A DNA stretch of 64,000 bases from Frigoribacterium sp. Leaf8 (GTDB taxonomy: Bacteria > Actinomycetota > Actinomycetes > Actinomycetales > Microbacteriaceae). Made by a program: the position numbers and the translations under genes. Shown here in pieces: positions 55,277 through 63,165 of the stretch. Location: assembly GCF_001421165.1 (NCBI RefSeq), contig NZ_LMKB01000001.1, positions 646,009 to 710,008 of the forward strand, read 5' to 3'. The notes beneath the pieces were generated by a model. The model ran no database searches. It was not told the DNA's origin and saw only the letters and a list, made by a program, of their open reading frames with translations. Numbering within the stretch: the first letter of the stretch is position 1; every line of letters starts with the position of its first letter.

Positions 55277-56665
55277 ATGTCGATCGCCCATCTCGGTCTC
55301 GCTCCCGATGCGTCGAACGCCCGCGATCGAGACCGTGGTGGCCCCGTCAACATGGACCGCGTCCCGCCTCACGACCTGCTCGCCGAGCAGAGCGCGCTCG
55401 GCGGCATGCTGCTCAGCAAGGACGCCGTGGCCGACGTGATCGAGACGGTCCGCGGCATGGACTTCTACGTGCCCAAGCACGAGGTCATCTACGACGCGAT
55501 CCTGGGGCTGTACTCGCACGGCGAGCCCACCGACGTCATCACGGTCAGCGACGAGCTGATGAAGTCCGCCGACCTGTCGCGGGCCGGGGGAGCGGAGTAC
55601 CTCCACACCCTCACCGGCGTCGTGCCCACCGCGGCGAACGCGGGCTACTACGCGTCGATCGTCGCCGAGAAGGCGGTGCTGCGCCGTCTGGTCGAGGCCG
55701 GCACGCGCATCGTGCAGATGGGGTACGCGAGCGAGGGCGAGGTCGTCGACCTGGTCAACAACGCGCAGGCCGAGGTCTACAACGTGGCCGGTGGCGTGCA
55801 GACCGAGGACTACGTGCCGCTGAACGAGGCGGTGACGGTCGCGATCGACGAGATCGAGGCGGCCAAGGGTCGCGACGGTCAGATGACGGGCGTGCCGACG
55901 GGGTTCGCGCAGCTCGACGCGCTGACGAACGGGTTCCACCCGGGCCAGCTGATCATCGTGGCGGCGCGACCGGCGCTGGGTAAGTCGACGTTGGCGCTCG
56001 ACCTGGCGCGGGCGGCGTCGATCAAGCACGGGCAGGCGTCGGTGTTCTTCTCACTCGAGATGGGGCGCAGCGAGATCGCGATGCGTCTCATGTCGGCCGA
56101 GTCGAGCGTGCCGCTCCAGAACATGCGTAAAGGAACGGTCGACGCGCGGGACTGGACGAACATCGCGCAGGTGCGTGGGCGGATCAACGATGCGCCGCTC
56201 TTCATCGACGACTCGCCCAACATGACGTTGGTCGAGATCCGGGCGAAGTGCCGTCGCCTGAAGCAGCAGCACAACCTCAAGCTCGTGGTGATCGACTACC
56301 TGCAGCTGATGACGTCGGGCAAGCGGGTCGAGAGCCGTCAGCAAGAGGTGTCAGAGTTCTCGCGTGCCCTGAAGCTGATGGCGAAAGAGCTGCAGGTGCC
56401 GGTGATCGCGCTGTCGCAGCTGAACCGTGGTCCCGAGCAGCGTGCCGACAAGAAGCCCGCGATCAGCGACCTGCGAGAGTCCGGTTCGCTCGAGCAGGAC
56501 GCCGACATGGTCATCCTGTTGCACCGCGAGTCCGCCTACGAGAAAGACAACCCCCGTCAGGGCGAGGCCGACTTCATCGTCGCCAAGCACCGCAACGGCC
56601 CCACCGACACCATCACGGTCGCCTTCCACGGAATGTTCTCCCGCTTCGTCGACATGCCCAGCTAG
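55277..56665 (+). CDS. dnaB: Replicative DNA helicase DnaB
   Basis: 462 aa from the ATG at 55277 with GGAGG 7 nt upstream. N-terminal domain (PHDLLAEQSALGGMLLS), linker, RecA-like core with Walker A ARPALGKSTLALDL, LVVIDYLQLM, SQLNRGPEQR and DLRESGSLEQDADMV. No intein, unlike many actinobacterial DnaB genes. Unwinds DNA at the fork; loading probably needs DciA. Confidence 0.96.
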   Translation: MSIAHLGLAPDASNARDRDRGGPVNMDRVPPHDLLAEQSALGGMLLSKDAVADVIETVRGMDFYVPKHEVIYDAILGLYSHGEPTDVITVSDELMKSADLSRAGGAEYLHTLTGVVPTAANAGYYASIVAEKAVLRRLVEAGTRIVQMGYASEGEVVDLVNNAQAEVYNVAGGVQTEDYVPLNEAVTVAIDEIEAAKGRDGQMTGVPTGFAQLDALTNGFHPGQLIIVAARPALGKSTLALDLARAASIKHGQASVFFSLEMGRSEIAMRLMSAESSVPLQNMRKGTVDARDWTNIAQVRGRINDAPLFIDDSPNMTLVEIRAKCRRLKQQHNLKLVVIDYLQLMTSGKRVESRQQEVSEFSRALKLMAKELQVPVIALSQLNRGPEQRADKKPAISDLRESGSLEQDADMVILLHRESAYEKDNPRQGEADFIVAKHRNGPTDTITVAFHGMFSRFVDMPS

Positions 56666-56942
56666 CGAGTGAGCTGTCTGTGATTTCTCACCGGGACCGG
56701 CTACTTCTCGACTTTGTTTGCCGTACGCGACGCATGGGCTCTCCCTGAGAAGCGTCGATCTCCCCCACTCGCCTTGACGGCAAGAGTGAATGAGCGCCGC
56801 TAACACGTACGAGTGACGTCAATGGGGCCAAACATGAACGGTAATAGGGGCCCTTACAGTTATGCATGAGATCGAGAGGCCTGCGGTCTTCCCTGCTTAA
56901 TTAGCACGCTGCCGAGAACGGGCCTTTGCATTCCCGGAACCG

Positions 56943-56948
56943 TATGAT
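56943..56948 (+). promoter_or_regulatory. -10 box of island gene 1, likely leaderless
   Basis: TATGAT ends 6 nt before the ATG at 56955. The preceding gap (56666-56942) after dnaB holds nothing else recognisable and has lower G+C. Confidence 0.4.
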
Positions 56949-56954
56949 CCTGAC

Positions 56955-57614
56955 ATGGCGAACCAAAATTCAGCTAGAGCCGACTCGGAACCCATCCGAC
57001 TCGAGCCGGGCGTGCATCGCGTGGTGGTCAGCACGCCAGCTGCGGTCGAACTTCGTGACCTCGCGAGCCTTCGGCGGGATTTTGCATTGGCCCACGGGTT
57101 TTTGGAGTTCTACCTCGGGGCAGACATTGAGGGTGATGAGGACATTCCGTCCCGACTCGACGCGCTCTGGATTTCAGCCATCACGATGTACGGACGAGGG
57201 TTTTCTTCCGGGATGCGGCACTCAGCTCATGCCGAGACTGCCCACCTAACACCAACCGAAACTGCCGACCACGAGTACTTCGTGGATTTGCGCAACAAAT
57301 ACATTGCTCACGCCGTGAATGGATTCGAGAAAAGCGTTGTTTTCGCGGACCTAAGCGACCGCGAAACGTCTCCAGTGCGGATACTCCAAGTGGGAGAATT
57401 ACACAGAAGCCTGTCGCGGCTGGCTCGGGTGCCCGCAGAGAAATTGAACCACCTGTGCGAAGGGCAGATTGCCTCGCTCACGCACCGTATCGATCGACTA
57501 CACCAAGACATCGGCCAAGAACTCGCCGTTCTCGATAGTGACAGCGTCTACGCACTGCCCGAATTCAAGCCGCCCACTCTCGACGGTTCAAACCCTCGCT
57601 CACAACGGTCCTAA
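56955..57614 (+). CDS. Uncharacterised island protein with HEPN-like RNKYIAH motif
   Basis: 219 aa, not recognised. Mostly helical and soluble. Residues 113-119 read RNKYIAH, an Rx5H motif in the sequence setting (LRNKYIAHAVNGFEKS) typical of HEPN-like domains. Residues 30-85 (LRRDFALAHGFLEFYLG...LDALWISAITMYGRG) would be the preceding helices. HEPN proteins are often RNases in toxin-antitoxin or phage-defence systems, but catalytic versus structural use cannot be told here. It opens the low-G+C cluster after dnaB and has a probable leaderless promoter. The HEPN call is inference from the motif. Confidence 0.6.
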   Translation: MANQNSARADSEPIRLEPGVHRVVVSTPAAVELRDLASLRRDFALAHGFLEFYLGADIEGDEDIPSRLDALWISAITMYGRGFSSGMRHSAHAETAHLTPTETADHEYFVDLRNKYIAHAVNGFEKSVVFADLSDRETSPVRILQVGELHRSLSRLARVPAEKLNHLCEGQIASLTHRIDRLHQDIGQELAVLDSDSVYALPEFKPPTLDGSNPRSQRS

Positions 57615-57672
57615 AGCGTCAGGGTCGCGTGCGTCGGGTGGCGATGACCGGGGCGTGCGCAACAATGGCGAG

Positions 57673-58803
57673 ATGAAGCTCCGAGCAAGTGCGCGCATCC
57701 TCAAGAAGAAGGCAGTGTCTTCGTTCAAGAGGTCTGTCGATGCATTTAACAGCGTCGATGACAACGGCCGCATGACGACGGTGTTGCTTCACGCCCAGCA
57801 TTCATTCGAGATGCTCCTCAAGGCCGCGCTTAATCAAAAGCAGGTGAACGTCTTTGATAAGTCCACCGGTCGTTCAATCGGCTTCGAGCAGGTCCTTCGT
57901 CAGGCCGCTCAGACCGTAGGGATCAAACTCACCGACGAAGAAGCCGGGACACTTAGGGCCATCGACGCTCTGCGGGACGACGAACAACACTGGTACAACG
58001 ACGTAGATGAAGCGTTGCTCTACGTCCACTTACGCGCAGCGGTCACCCTATTTGATGATCTCTTGCAACGCGTGTTCAGTGAACACCTGGCTGATCACCT
58101 GCCTCGGCGTATCCTTCCGATCTCGACTGAGCCCCCGAAAGACTTTCAGGTACTGGTGGACTCCGAGTACACGAAGATCATCGAGCTCCTAAAGCCGGGG
58201 CGTCGTGCGGGCGCAGAGGCCCGGGCTCGTATACGCACTCTTCTAGCGATGGAGGCTCACGCCGAGCCCGAAACAATCGTTTCAGATAAAGATGTGACGC
58301 GCGTTGAGGCTGGTATCCGCGAGGGAAAAGAACGCACGCAGGTGTTTCCTCGGCTGAGCAAGGTCGGGGCCTCGATCAGCGGCGAGGGCCTTGAAGTTCA
58401 GGTTCGCTTCGTCAAGCACCAAGACGCGCTTGCTGTGAGATTCACGAATGACGAGGAGATCGATGCCGCGGCTATCCGGACAGTCGATCAGCAGAAAAAA
58501 TATCACTGGACTGCCTTCGCGCTGGCCGATGCCCTCGGCATCTCTCGGCCTCGCGGGACGGCGCTTAGAACCCATCTGGGCATTAACAACGACCCCAACA
58601 TCTGCCATACCTTCACGTTCTCGAAGCAGAAACATGTGCGTTTCTCCGACCAGGCGCTCGTGAAGATGAAAGCGGCCATGCAGGTCGTGGATATGGGGGT
58701 CATTTGGAACGTGCACTCGCCCACTAAGAAGCACACTGCCGGTGTGACCGACTGTGGTCAATACGGTTGCACCTGCAACGAATCCGCCGCGGGTGCAAAC
58801 TGA
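57673..58803 (+). CDS. DUF3644-like protein with HEPN-type RDDEQH motif
   Basis: 376 aa from the ATG at 57673 (GTG at 57655 is an alternative). The N-terminal ~150 residues resemble DUF3644: AFNSVDDNGRMTTVLLHAQHSFEMLLKAAL, then IGFEQVLRQA and LRDDEQHWYNDVDEALLYVHLRAA. Arg101 and His106 form an Rx4H motif. The C-terminal part (about 280-376) has an HTH-like segment (WTAFALADALGISRPRGTALR) and a terminal CGQYGCTC cluster that could bind metal. Likely a nucleic-acid-related defence or regulatory factor, inferred only. 58 bp after the previous gene, same strand. Confidence 0.6.
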   Translation: MKLRASARILKKKAVSSFKRSVDAFNSVDDNGRMTTVLLHAQHSFEMLLKAALNQKQVNVFDKSTGRSIGFEQVLRQAAQTVGIKLTDEEAGTLRAIDALRDDEQHWYNDVDEALLYVHLRAAVTLFDDLLQRVFSEHLADHLPRRILPISTEPPKDFQVLVDSEYTKIIELLKPGRRAGAEARARIRTLLAMEAHAEPETIVSDKDVTRVEAGIREGKERTQVFPRLSKVGASISGEGLEVQVRFVKHQDALAVRFTNDEEIDAAAIRTVDQQKKYHWTAFALADALGISRPRGTALRTHLGINNDPNICHTFTFSKQKHVRFSDQALVKMKAAMQVVDMGVIWNVHSPTKKHTAGVTDCGQYGCTCNESAAGAN

Positions 58804-59366
58804 GACGTCCAAAAACATATTTTTCTAATGTTGCATCTGTATTCGAGCTTAAAGTGGGGTGGCACCCTCGCATGAAAAGCCGACGCCGTTAGTAGCAAGT
58901 AGAGAATATTGAGCAACTCGAGACTAAGTGCTGATGTGGCATTATTCAATTTCTATTCTCGCTGTCTTGGTCCCTTCTGTTTCAAAAGTTGAGATAAAAA
59001 AATGGTGTCCCTAGGCGTTCCTGGATGGACACAGTCGCAGGCATTCTCACTGGAGGCGTTTAAGGACGAGTTCCACCTCGTTGTTTGACCAGGATAAGAC
59101 CGGACGGTCAGACACGTTCGACGAACGCAGCAAGGGATGTAGTACTTCCTCAGCCACCTCATGCGAAGGCACGGCCTGTGGCCCCGGTCGCTCGAAGATT
59201 CCCTCTGGGGATGAATCTGTCGCATCTCTCTGAAATCAAATTAAAGACAGACACTGTAGTGATAACAAATGTCTGTATGGATTAGTGCATGCCGAATCTA
59301 TTGGGGTGAACTTGTCCGGCGGCAGCCTCAACTTCGAGTTGCCCTAGCCGTGTGATCAAGGCCAGA
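58804..59366. other. Gene-poor island spacer with a possible gene remnant
   Basis: 563 bp with low G+C. The only protein-like reading is a minus-strand stop-to-stop frame at 59047-59235 (about 62 codons, including SHEVAEEVLHPLLRSSNV and VELVLKRLQ before the stop) without a clear start; it may be the tail of a lost gene. The overlapping 90-codon minus-strand frame is Arg/Cys-rich and looks spurious. Confidence 0.4.
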
Positions 59367-60227
59367 ATGAAATCCATGAGAACTCCTCGCGGCAACAATT
59401 CGCGTAACGCCCGAGGTAAACTAGTCCGCTACCTAACGGCTATAGTGCTCATTATAGCCTACCTGATTATTTCAGCACTATTTTATCGAGAGTGCGTGGT
59501 GACTTCGGGAAGCGCGAGTTCCGACGGCAACGTGTGTCAGCCGGCATCCTTGGACAGCGCGCCCGTAGTAGCCGCGATCCTGCTCTTGATCGCCCTAATC
59601 TGGCCCGAAATAGCCGAGATTAGTATTTTAGGTGTGTCCCTCAAACGGCGCCTGGCCGAGGCGGAACGCACCGCCGCAAGTGCCGCCCAGGAGTCAGCGA
59701 AGGCGGCGGCAGCGACTGTCGCTTTGCAAGCCCAGATTAATCAGGTAGTCGCCACTTACTCGGCGGCCAGTGCCTCCGCTGAGAACCACACCAACGTCAT
59801 TTTTGATCCGGCATGGACTCCGGCGCGCGCGGCTGAACTTAGGGACGCGTATGTTGATGTCAAAGCTCAAGTCAAACCGCTTGCCGGGGCTGAGGCGCAG
59901 CAGTCTCTTGCTGAGTTGTCTCTTCAATTGCTCCGTGAGTATCAGGACCTCGCGGTGCGTCTCGGCATTGCTCGGACGAGACCGGTAGGACGGCCTTCGG
60001 AGGCCACGCGTGAGCTCTATCGGGCCCGCCAGGCATTCATTGCCGATTACCAACCCCAAGTGAGCAGCGTTCGTGAAGCACGAAACTCAGTCGCGCATGC
60101 CGAGCAACTTTCACGAGAAGAGTTGATTGAGGCAATTCAGGTCGTCCGACTTCTTGATGGCCGCCTCAGTGAGGCTTTCGCTGATCGTGGCATGGCCGAA
60201 GGTGCTGAAGGTTCCTCTGCGAGCTAG
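59367..60227 (+). CDS. Uncharacterised membrane protein with HEPN-like RNSVAH motif
   Basis: 286 aa from the ATG at 59367 with AAGG 5 nt before it; GTG 59352 and ATG 59376 are alternatives. Two membrane helices (about 21-40 and 66-88), then a coiled coil (SLKRRLAEAERTAASAAQESAKAA region), then a helical soluble domain ending in REARNSVAHAEQLSREELIEAI, where Arg239-His244 form an Rx4H motif. The layout is a membrane-tethered HEPN-like domain facing the cytosol. No family recognised. Same strand as the other island genes. Confidence 0.6.
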   Translation: MKSMRTPRGNNSRNARGKLVRYLTAIVLIIAYLIISALFYRECVVTSGSASSDGNVCQPASLDSAPVVAAILLLIALIWPEIAEISILGVSLKRRLAEAERTAASAAQESAKAAAATVALQAQINQVVATYSAASASAENHTNVIFDPAWTPARAAELRDAYVDVKAQVKPLAGAEAQQSLAELSLQLLREYQDLAVRLGIARTRPVGRPSEATRELYRARQAFIADYQPQVSSVREARNSVAHAEQLSREELIEAIQVVRLLDGRLSEAFADRGMAEGAEGSSAS

Positions 60228-60356
60228 CCAGGGTGAAATCACGTCCGCGATGCTGGGGCGACTTCCTTGAAGAAGGACCCTGAATGCGAGTATCTCCAAT
60301 TTTTATCCCGTTCCGCTGCGCAACCAAACCTGGATCGTTCTGGCTAGCGTGTCGGT

Positions 60357-61376
60357 GTGAATCCGAACGCACGTCTCCTTTCCGCAATCGATGAGGCCTT
60401 GACGGTGGCTGCATCAAACGCAGCCGCCAGTGTGCTTGCGCGCAATGCGCTACGTGTTGCCATGCTGAGGGAGGACTTCGTCGCACAGTTCTGGCTCAGG
60501 CTGGAATTAGAGGGCGTGCGAACAATGGAGGAATCAGCGGCGCGGCGTCGACCGCTGCAGGCTCGCTTGATTGCTCTTGTCGGAGAGGCCGAGGCGCGTC
60601 GGGCTTGGACGGAGGCGCTTGAGGCTGCGATATCCCGCCGAACCATAAAACGCAAAGCGGATGCAGTCATGGGACATAGTGCCGTCGATCTTGAACTATT
60701 CGCAGATTCCCTTCAAGTAATGCTTGATAACATCGTTGATCAGGAATCATCACCAATGGCGCTTAGGGGACCCCAACAGCATGGTGAGAAGGATGTCTCG
60801 GAACTAGCTATGCAAGTCCTCGAGATCCGATCCATTCTTGAGCGTTTGCGAAACGCAGCTCACACCTACGTGCTCGAGGCTGAAGTGGACACCCTGTCGG
60901 GCGTGGTGCCCTCCGTTGTCGCGAAAGGGCGTGCCTTTGCTGAGGGCGAACTTGCGAAGCGGGCGCCCGACGCGCTGGCCGCCTTAGACATGGCTGAGAC
61001 GAATGTCGCGATCGGGGGCGTCGAGGCTGGAAGTATGGCTGCGACGTGCTGTAGGCGCGCGATTAAGGCGTTGGCAGACGCGTTGTATCCCCCGGGCACC
61101 TCGGTCACGGATGACAAGGGAGTGACACGAGAAATGGATGACAAGCACTACCGCAATCGCCTGACTCAATTTGTGCTCGACAGCCGAGGACGTTCCCATT
61201 ATGCGGACCTAGTCACTTCGAACCTCACAGTTCTGGGCATGCGGCTAAAGTCGCTCGACGACCTTGCTAGCAAAGGAGTTCATGCCGAGCTTGCAAGTGA
61301 GGAGGCCGAGGCGTGCGTGGCTGGGACGTGGGCGTTGGCGACTGAGCTCCTTCGGATCGACGAGCAGGCAAGCTGA
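60357..61376 (+). CDS. Uncharacterised protein with possible AbiTii-like N-terminus
   Basis: 339 aa from a GTG at 60357; a TAGCGT -10-like site ends 6 nt upstream, so it may be leaderless. The first ~55 residues (ARLLSAIDEALTVAAS ... NALRVAML ... FWLRLELEGV) resemble the AbiTii N-terminal pattern (helix, LR-A, WL-x-EL-G). The C-terminal ~200 residues are helical, with CCRRAIKALADALYPPGT and a YRNRLTQFV segment, a layout I have seen in uncharacterised defence-associated proteins. No catalytic motif is certain. Function unknown; abortive-infection role is a guess from similarity. Confidence 0.55.
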   Translation: MNPNARLLSAIDEALTVAASNAAASVLARNALRVAMLREDFVAQFWLRLELEGVRTMEESAARRRPLQARLIALVGEAEARRAWTEALEAAISRRTIKRKADAVMGHSAVDLELFADSLQVMLDNIVDQESSPMALRGPQQHGEKDVSELAMQVLEIRSILERLRNAAHTYVLEAEVDTLSGVVPSVVAKGRAFAEGELAKRAPDALAALDMAETNVAIGGVEAGSMAATCCRRAIKALADALYPPGTSVTDDKGVTREMDDKHYRNRLTQFVLDSRGRSHYADLVTSNLTVLGMRLKSLDDLASKGVHAELASEEAEACVAGTWALATELLRIDEQAS

Positions 61377-61431
61377 TGCTAAATTTCGTAACCGGTCAAT
61401 GCTTGCGTTGCCGTGTCACTGGGGGACGATC

Positions 61432-62037
61432 ATGACTGGCGGCTCGCGTTTGACGGCAACACTCGCCGTCGCGTTCTCTGTTCTGCTGTTGGGAGCGACG
61501 ATTGGTCTCGGCGTTGCATTCGTGGATTCGAAGCCCGAGGCCTGGCTTGGACCTGCTGCGACTGTGACCGCCGCGTCGTCGGCTGCCCTTGTCGCTCTAA
61601 GACTCAACGAGTCCGCAGGCGAGCGCCGCGCGGCGGTGCTTGCCCAACAACAACGGGAGTTGCGTGCTGCACAACAGAACCGTTACGAGCGCCTCCTGCA
61701 GACCATATTGACTCAGTTTGGTGGCACGCCAGCAGATGAAACTGCACGTCGTTCTGAGCTTGCTGCGTGGGGTTCATCTGATTTGCTTAATCTAATGAAC
61801 CGCTGGTTCGCCTTCGCGCGGGATATTACGCAAAATGGGGGCGTAGTTCCGATTGCTTCGCGGCCCGAGATACAGGCACTCGTCGCAGACATCGCACTCC
61901 TGGCCCGAAACCTTTCTGGCGTCGATGATAAGACGAATGCACCGTCGCAAAACACAATGGGTCAGTTGCTCTTCGATGACTGGTCCTCGGCCAATCCTGC
62001 AGCGCCAGAATTGGGACACGATACGCTCCGGGACTAG
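61432..62037 (+). CDS. Uncharacterised membrane protein with coiled coil
   Basis: 201 aa from the ATG at 61432 with GGGGGA 5 nt upstream; ATG 61399 is an alternative. Two N-terminal membrane helices (about 7-32 and 38-57), then a coiled coil rich in Arg/Gln/Ala (GERRAAVLAQQQRELRAAQQ) and a helical cytosolic domain without recognised motif. Overall topology resembles the island gene at 59367 but without the Rx4H motif. Last island gene; converges with the LAXTG remnant, 24 bp between stops. Confidence 0.55.
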   Translation: MTGGSRLTATLAVAFSVLLLGATIGLGVAFVDSKPEAWLGPAATVTAASSAALVALRLNESAGERRAAVLAQQQRELRAAQQNRYERLLQTILTQFGGTPADETARRSELAAWGSSDLLNLMNRWFAFARDITQNGGVVPIASRPEIQALVADIALLARNLSGVDDKTNAPSQNTMGQLLFDDWSSANPAAPELGHDTLRD

Positions 62038-62061
62038 GGGCAATTCCTCCGGTGTGGCCTA

Positions 62062-63165
62062 TTAATCTGCATGCCTGCCCCCAGCCCGTGCAGGCGACGA
62101 TGTCCAACGTCGGTACAGTCGGCGTCGACTTGCGATGGTTAGGCCAAGGCCGGCGAGTAGGGCAGCAAAGCCAATGAGTGCGGCAATCGACGTTGCGTCT
62201 TTGCTCGAACCCGTCCAGGCGAGGGGGCCGCTGGCAGCCGTTGCGTAAGGGTCTGCTGCGGGCGTCGGGGCCGTACCCGCCGCCGCTGCGACGTAGTCGA
62301 CTACGAGGCGGCCGGTCACAGCGGTGCCGTCGGCGCGCTCGGCGGCGAAGGTGAGTGGGGTCGGGTCGCCGACGAGGGTGGGGGAGGGCGCGAAGGTGAC
62401 CTGGCCGGTGGTGGGCTGGACCTGCCACGTGCCGTCGTCGGTCGTGACCTCGGTGGCGGGCGTCTCGTTCGGCTGGATCAACACGACCGACTCGGGCACG
62501 AGGTCGGGCACAGCCGCGGGCAGGTCGAAGACTGCCGGGGCGCCCGCAGGGGCCGTCAGGGCGACGTCCGGCAGCGTCACGACCGGCGTCGGCGGCACGA
62601 CGGCCGCCGCGGTCACCGTCGGGGTCGCTGTCGACGCGACGGTGTCACCCGCGGTGGTGTCCACCCGGTACGAGACCGGCGTCGCCGTGCCGACGAAGGC
62701 GGGCTCGGGCGTGAAGACCAGCACCTCACCGTCGACCGTCCAGGTGCCCTCGCCGGGCACCACCACGGTGGCGGCGTCGACACCGGAGGGGTCTACGAGA
62801 CGGAGGGTGGCGGGGGAGACCGGCACCGCGCCTCCGTCGTTTTCTGTCACTGCGAGACGCTGGGGGACGCCCTGCTCGCCGGTCGAGGTGTCGGGCCTCG
62901 CGACCTCGGTCACCGAGGGCGTCAGGGTGGAGGCGGCGGTCGCTCCGGCCGCGTCGCTCACCACGTAGGGCACCGGCGTCGCCGTTCCCGTGAAGGCGGG
63001 CTCGGGCGTGAAGAGCACGGTGCCGGCGGTGCGGTCGAGCTCATAGCGTCCCTCACCGGGGACCACGACGACCGTGCCGTCGGCATCCACCGTCGCTCCG
63101 GCCGGAGCCTCGAGACGGGTGTCCGCGGGGTCGAGCGGCACGAGCGGGTCACCCGCGATGATCAC
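62062..63165 (-). pseudogene. 5'-truncated LAXTG-anchored surface protein (tandem repeat adhesin remnant)
   Basis: 367 codons remain. Repeats of about 95-105 residues with the pattern GEGRYELDRTAGTVLFTPEP-F-GTATPV resemble the CshA-type fibril repeats of large actinobacterial surface proteins. The C-terminus has a sortase signal: LAWTG, a membrane helix (SIAALIGFAALLAGLGL) and RRRLYRRW. There is no signal peptide; the frame starts abruptly in mid-repeat and a stop lies just upstream, so the 5' part has been lost, perhaps when the neighbouring island arrived. LAXTG matches the class E sortase at 14908-15684. Confidence 0.7.

Follow-up and report, generated by a model that had tools for sequence, protein, structure and literature searches.

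The stretch behind dnaB in Frigoribacterium sp. Leaf8, a probable allele of a defence hotspot with solo HEPN-type genes

Directly behind dnaB, the genome of Frigoribacterium sp. Leaf8 carries a stretch of deviant composition with five genes, here called g1 to g5, several of which encode HEPN-like proteins. The stretch is probably one allele of a defence hotspot on the dnaB side, holding several solo HEPN-type defence genes that were acquired independently. It occupies positions 56666 to 62061 of the window, that is, of the whole 64,000 nucleotides of DNA that were analysed. Most of g1 to g5 are already described kinds of genes; the exceptions are g1, which belongs to a small unrecognised family, and g5, an orphan. 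An earlier interpretation made from the letters alone (the sequence-only reading) had proposed a single undescribed module of five genes, and this proposal is unsupported because strong relatives of g1 to g4 never co-occur in the collections searched.

The layout given in that reading is correct: five open reading frames (ORFs) on the plus strand lie between dnaB, which ends at 56665, and a surface-type gene on the minus strand (62062-63165), and all five frames are intact. Its remarks on composition hold as well, with a guanine plus cytosine (G+C) content of 0.569 in 56666-62050 versus 0.683 in 1-56665, and a third-position G+C of 0.58-0.68 in g1 to g5 versus 0.92 in dnaB. The features are as follows.

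56666-62061, no strand: slot from dnaB to the surface-type gene, low in G+C and variable among congeners
55277-56665, plus strand: dnaB, a core gene and the left border, from the dnaB search of 60 genomes
56955-57614, plus strand: g1, 219 amino acids (aa), HEPN-like RNKYIAH; R113, N114 and H119 invariant in 6/6 aligned
57673-58803, plus strand: g2, 376 aa, DUF3644 HEPN protein and PADLOC candidate PDC-S19, from profiles; R101 and H106 invariant
59352-60227, plus strand: g3, up to 291 aa, two N-terminal hydrophobic stretches and a C-terminal HEPN-like RNSVAH, from an alignment of three
60357-61376, plus strand: g4, 339 aa, AbiTii-like N-terminus and a C-terminal domain with SKGVH; K306 and H309 invariant in 7/7
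61432-62037, plus strand: g5, 201 aa, one N-terminal hydrophobic stretch, orphan without a family match
62062-63165, minus strand: surface-type gene, right border, with LAWTG and a hydrophobic tail

A variable site and genes without observed co-occurrence elsewhere

The dnaB gene was matched in all 60 genomes searched, strongly in 57 and as a weak partial match in three (G026, G046, G052), and what follows it varies. In 14 congeners, the roughly 10 kb that follow dnaB contain none of g1 to g5 (the stretch of G012 spans 4.6 kb and ends at the contig end), and the surface-type gene was matched in the fetched stretches of two of these 14 (L031, L035). When the DNA following dnaB in the 15 genus genomes, up to 5.5 kb each (3.1 kb for G012), was compared by blastn (1e-10), only one pair shared more than 300 bp, amounting to about 395 bp. 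The G+C content behind dnaB is 0.56-0.64 in ten of the 15 genomes and 0.67-0.74 in the remaining five.

Genes that match defence models recur near this position in the genus. Twenty proteins encoded within 10 kb of dnaB were chosen by eye from nine of the 14 congeners and scanned with PADLOC at a threshold of 1e-3; nine of the 20, from seven of the 14 congeners, gave matches at this threshold or better. They include type I restriction-modification (G014), Gabija A and B (G008), SIR2 (G009) and PifA/QatA/KAP (G003). Because the stretch differs among the 15 genus genomes and defence matches were found in seven of the 14 congeners, the site behind dnaB very probably acts as a hotspot in the genus, receiving foreign cargo that is often defensive. 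Outside the genus, three of five stretches (L046, L048, L050) have a gene that looks purB-like by eye, at a distance of 1.1 to 3.7 kb after dnaB; in the other two (L045, L047) no such gene was recognised.

Several side observations concern the borders and contents of the site. A resolvase-like gene lies behind dnaB in two congeners (L034:3439-4008 and L039:6098-6748); the printed N-terminal residues of the two agree, and the gene is a possible mobility marker. The dnaB match itself is found in pieces within long frames of 889-1451 aa in six of the 60 genomes (G037, G040, G043, G044, G050, G058), as expected for inteins in dnaB. The surface-type gene on the other side holds two direct repeats of 114 nt that are 74% alike (62607-62720, 62904-63017).

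Strong relatives of g1, g2, g3 and g4 never share a genome among the 299 genomes of the family that were searched for each gene. G212 is the only genome matched by both g1 and g2, in each case weakly, and the two matches are far apart on one contig (positions 1650439 and 3186515). Thirty loci around relatives, spanning 3 to 21 kb, were searched with all five proteins (E 0.01): in 25 a single one of the five was detected, five loci around weak matches contained none, and no locus contained two. The five genes are probably not a single operon either, because the intergenic gaps calculated from the coordinates measure 58 nt (g1-g2), 548 nt (g2-g3), 129 nt (g3-g4) and 55 nt (g4-g5). The 548-nt gap (58804-59351) could contain a promoter or the remnant of a gene; an Rfam search, including this gap, gave no match at gathering scores. 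One promoter and six terminators were found versus shuffle means of 2.5 and 5.0, and a PHROGs search yielded no match below 0.029.

Motifs and relatives of the five proteins

The sequence-only reading rested on Arg-His motifs of the form Rx4-6H in three of the proteins. The strings are present and are conserved in relatives, and to this extent the claim stands, but the bare motif is at chance level: it occurs in 22 of 31 background ORFs of the window, and 44-96% of shuffled g1 to g4 sequences contain it. The bare string is therefore insignificant, and only conservation among relatives gives the motif meaning. Profile comparison of four alignments with solved structures gave no relevant match, the best for g3 being PspA/Vipp1 (0.036) over the helical middle part.

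The identity of g2 is the clearest, and both its HEPN-like nature and its defence setting are supported by a profile match and the invariant Arg and His. The protein, read from a start at 57673, carries RDDEQH at R101-H106 as noted before, and its likeness to DUF3644 is confirmed by Pfam (2.1e-7, 31.2 bits versus a cut-off of 27.6). PADLOC PDC-S19 is matched at 1.4e-159 over profile positions 1-352 of 355. By its sequence, g2 is an already catalogued PADLOC defence candidate; PDC stands for phage defence candidate. The match is near full length, the four plasmid relatives that were opened have none of g1 and g3 to g5 beside them, and no difference between g2 and PDC-S19 is evident. R101 and H106 are invariant in all ten aligned sequences, down to 19% identity; the ten rows include the near-copies L087 and L088. 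Among the weak matches in G212, G239, G249 and G012 only that of G249 (L081) was aligned, and the viral relative L097 was left out. Anantharaman et al. (2013, PMC3710099) describe one HEPN family as overlapping DUF3644.

Relatives of g2 are about 50-54% identical at the nearest found. The gene was matched in seven of the 299 family genomes, its own included, with strong relatives in G023 and G152, and in 14 plasmid records, four of which were opened and aligned. On two Xanthomonas plasmids the relative adjoins an Eco29kI restriction-modification pair, and on Rhodococcus and Arthrobacter plasmids it lies about 4.5 kb from Tni-type transposition genes. One relative (L097) was found among viral contigs and none in the phage records searched. 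In the congener G012, a g2-like protein is represented by a C-terminal fragment of 126 aa next to a type IIG-like gene (L080:9726-16463); the same locus also contains a gene that at its start is similar to the DO-GTPase2 protein encoded behind dnaB in G009.

That g3 is a HEPN-like protein in a defence setting is a reasonable reading. Its RNSVAH spans R244-H249 when counted from GTG 59352, which is the same motif that the sequence-only reading had numbered 239-244 from ATG 59367, and its R, N and H are invariant in the three aligned sequences. In line with the membrane anchoring proposed for two of the proteins, a hydropathy scan shows strongly hydrophobic stretches at 22-51 and 62-97 in g3 and at 6-33 in g5. 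Matches to HEPN_Swt1 (0.0094 for g3, 0.023 for L078, 0.0011 for L077) and DUF4145 (0.032, 0.014 and 0.045, respectively) are all below cut-off and cover the motif end in all three members. Membrane HEPN proteins of the DUF4145 type have a single transmembrane helix with a strictly conserved WP, according to Anantharaman et al. (2013, PMC3710099). Set against that description, g3 is alike in having N-terminal hydrophobic segments, one of them with W-P (the second stretch carries IWPEI), and a C-terminal HEPN motif. It differs in that it has two hydrophobic stretches rather than one, in that WP is kept in two of the three aligned sequences and replaced by WA in L077, and in its sub-cut-off profile matches.

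The distribution of g3 is narrow. It was matched in three of the 299 family genomes including its own, with strong relatives in G244 and G306, and its profile hit two of 188 genomes across the phylum (its own and a weak partial match in G037). No relative was found in plasmid records or, by profile, in viral contigs. NACHT and PDC-S25 genes lie near the relative in L078; that in L077 has only ordinary neighbours by eye.

The same reading is likewise reasonable for g4. An AbiTii-like N-terminus had been proposed for it, and what remains of this is a weak PADLOC match (0.0068) with no Pfam match to g4 itself. In a scan of three relatives, L079 and L090 were unmatched, and the Acinetobacter plasmid relative L092 matched Pfam AbiTii with 2.0e-8, which passes the curated cut-off. 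The C-terminal SKGVH has K306 and H309 invariant in all seven aligned sequences; none of the positions 5 to 7 residues ahead of the His holds an invariant Arg. A HEPN family named c2405 has a conserved His and no Arg and is fused to AbiTii, and a few of its members are fused to helix-hairpin-helix, in the account of Anantharaman et al. (2013, PMC3710099). As judged from sequence, g4 fits this AbiTii and c2405 HEPN architecture published in 2013, as described there: its N-terminal part appears AbiTii-like, its C-terminal part has a conserved His without a paired Arg, and its Alteromonas relative L093 has an added C-terminal segment and is annotated as helix-hairpin-helix. The difference lies in the weak AbiTii score of g4. 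The c2405 assignment rests on the paper's description of the family, because the matches included no c2405 profile.

The g4 gene was matched in 16 plasmid records and in two of 299 family genomes (its own and the strong relative G237); a search of viral contigs with the single sequence found none. Seven of the 16 records were opened and five of them aligned together with G237, leaving out L091, which is split, and L095, which is similar to L094. One relative adjoins Fic/VbhA and mobilisation genes, and others have hypothetical, transposase or ATP-binding gene neighbours. The split relative is found on the Arthrobacter plasmid pA40H2 as two ORFs (L091:6573-7423), near AIPR, PIN and restriction-modification genes.

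That g1 is a HEPN-like protein in a defence setting is plausible. The RNKYIAH motif is indeed located at R113-H119, and R113, N114 and H119 are invariant in all six aligned sequences; the alignment includes the weak match of G231 (L083) and omits that of G212 (L082), the translation of which has no RN...H string by eye. As a short protein with R-N-x4-H, g1 resembles HEPN_AbiU2 and other solo Abi HEPN families, but it and five relatives differ from these in having no HEPN profile match. AbiU2 as such was considered for g1 and rejected, with a weak match in one of 59 genomes of the order and none above the cut-off.

The family of g1 is small: six of the 299 family genomes were matched, its own included, with strong relatives in G020, G268 and G279, and the profile found only its own genome among 188 of the phylum. 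Viral contigs hold no relative by single sequence or profile. In L073 the relative has an Mrr-type gene as its immediate neighbour; in L074 and L072 the genes of interest, HsdR-type and type IIG-like respectively, are each at a distance of about 5 kb. The single plasmid record is from Arthrobacter, where a relaxase is nearby. On this plasmid, pZXY21, an ORF of 222 aa (L089:7884-8552) that has an RNYIHIH string of its own and no Pfam match comes after the g1 relative.

The last gene, g5, was listed with a start at 61264 that overlaps g4; ATG 61432, behind GGGGGA, is most likely the better start. It has no match in Pfam, PADLOC or NCBIfam and no relative in plasmids or elsewhere in the 299 family genomes, where it was found in its own genome only. 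Among the checks suggested in the sequence-only reading, the profile search has identified g2 and given a weak result for g4; neither g1 nor g5 obtained a library match.

Weighing the explanations

Under the hotspot explanation, g2 would act as a single-protein abortive-infection factor that halts growth or the phage, and the HEPN domain of which is predicted to cut RNA. This domain would probably be dimeric, joining two R-x4-H motifs, and the trigger would be phage infection, sensed via the C-terminal part. Both g1 and g3 may be further HEPN RNases, with the N-terminus of g3 tethering it to the membrane. The g4 protein would be an AbiTii protein with a non-catalytic HEPN-like domain that more likely binds than cuts RNA, because the His is kept and the Arg is lacking. 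None of g1 to g5 resembles an integrase, so the cargo is probably swapped by recombination across the conserved flanks. Gene content, motif conservation, the absence of co-occurrence in the collections searched and the variability of the site are observed facts; RNase action, phage protection, triggers and the exchange route are inferred, the protein roles from what is known of these families.

A number of observations weigh against a hotspot allele with independently acquired defence genes. At the level of the site, the five congeners with high G+C behind dnaB look mostly ordinary by eye, 11 of the 20 eye-picked proteins gave no PADLOC match, some of the defence matches are single genes of multi-gene systems, and the count of defence genes stands without a random-locus control. 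In addition, the ThsA-like SIR2 gene of G005 is as far as 5.8 kb from dnaB, the PD-Lambda-2_B match in G002 may be an ordinary helix-turn-helix/M78 regulator, and the Ymh protein of G006 matches PD-Lambda-3_B weakly (5.4e-4) and Pfam Hypoth_Ymh at 3.5e-24. At the level of the proteins, g1 has no match in Pfam, PADLOC or NCBIfam, and its five relatives have no HEPN match in Pfam or PADLOC. A comparison of the g1, g2 and g3 alignments with hhalign (3-10 rows each) found no mutual relation, and the AlphaFold2 models made from single sequences are unusable for g1 (pLDDT 37.7) and g3 (pLDDT 55.5). No defence gene was recognised by eye near the g2 relative in G023 or the g3 relative in G244, relatives of g4 on Acinetobacter and Alteromonas plasmids have mostly metabolic-gene neighbours, and g1 and g2, only 58 nt apart, may be co-transcribed.

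The metabolic neighbours of some g4 relatives, and the existence of broken relatives (the g2 fragment in G012 and the split L091), would also be in line with g1 to g5 being decaying or non-defence accessory genes, such as regulators or stress-related HEPN proteins, with no role against phages. This is unlikely in view of five intact frames with conserved Arg-His pairs and of known defence systems behind dnaB in congeners.

The short gaps invite another explanation, in which g1-g2 (58 nt), g4-g5 (55 nt) or both form two-gene systems, for instance a toxin with its regulator, and the rest is unrelated cargo. A 253-aa gene lies 9 nt downstream of the g4 relative of Cellulosimicrobium and would fit such an arrangement; however, its product has only a sub-cut-off DUF6233 match, g5 has none, and the locus itself contains no match to g5. 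Likewise, no g1 relative is present in any g2 locus searched, and two-gene systems appear quite improbable. It would be very surprising if the stretch were a lineage-specific, layered HEPN defence, with a soluble g1/g2 pair cooperating with a membrane-linked set of g3 to g5 and with g1 founding an undescribed family of HEPN RNases near restriction systems. Least credible of all is one undescribed multi-HEPN module, in which g3 and g5 would act as sensors at the membrane and RNA would be cut by g1, g2 and g3: it could draw on the common strand, adjacency and low G+C of the genes, their two short gaps and the conserved Arg-His in three families, but is opposed by the absence of co-occurrence in the 299 family genomes searched per gene and in the 30 loci around relatives, the 548-nt gap between g2 and g3, the four opened g2 plasmid loci with none of the other genes, and a g5 without relatives in the family genomes or plasmids searched.

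Implications for the genus

On present evidence, the gene set g1 to g5 is not a new system. What stands out among its members is g1, a small family with an invariant R-N-x4-H that is unrecognised by the libraries searched, and whose three strong relatives in the family adjoin, or lie about 5 kb from, restriction-type genes. By the wider comparison, the DNA that follows dnaB in the genus appears to be variable and rich in defence genes, and new systems could easily be sought there.

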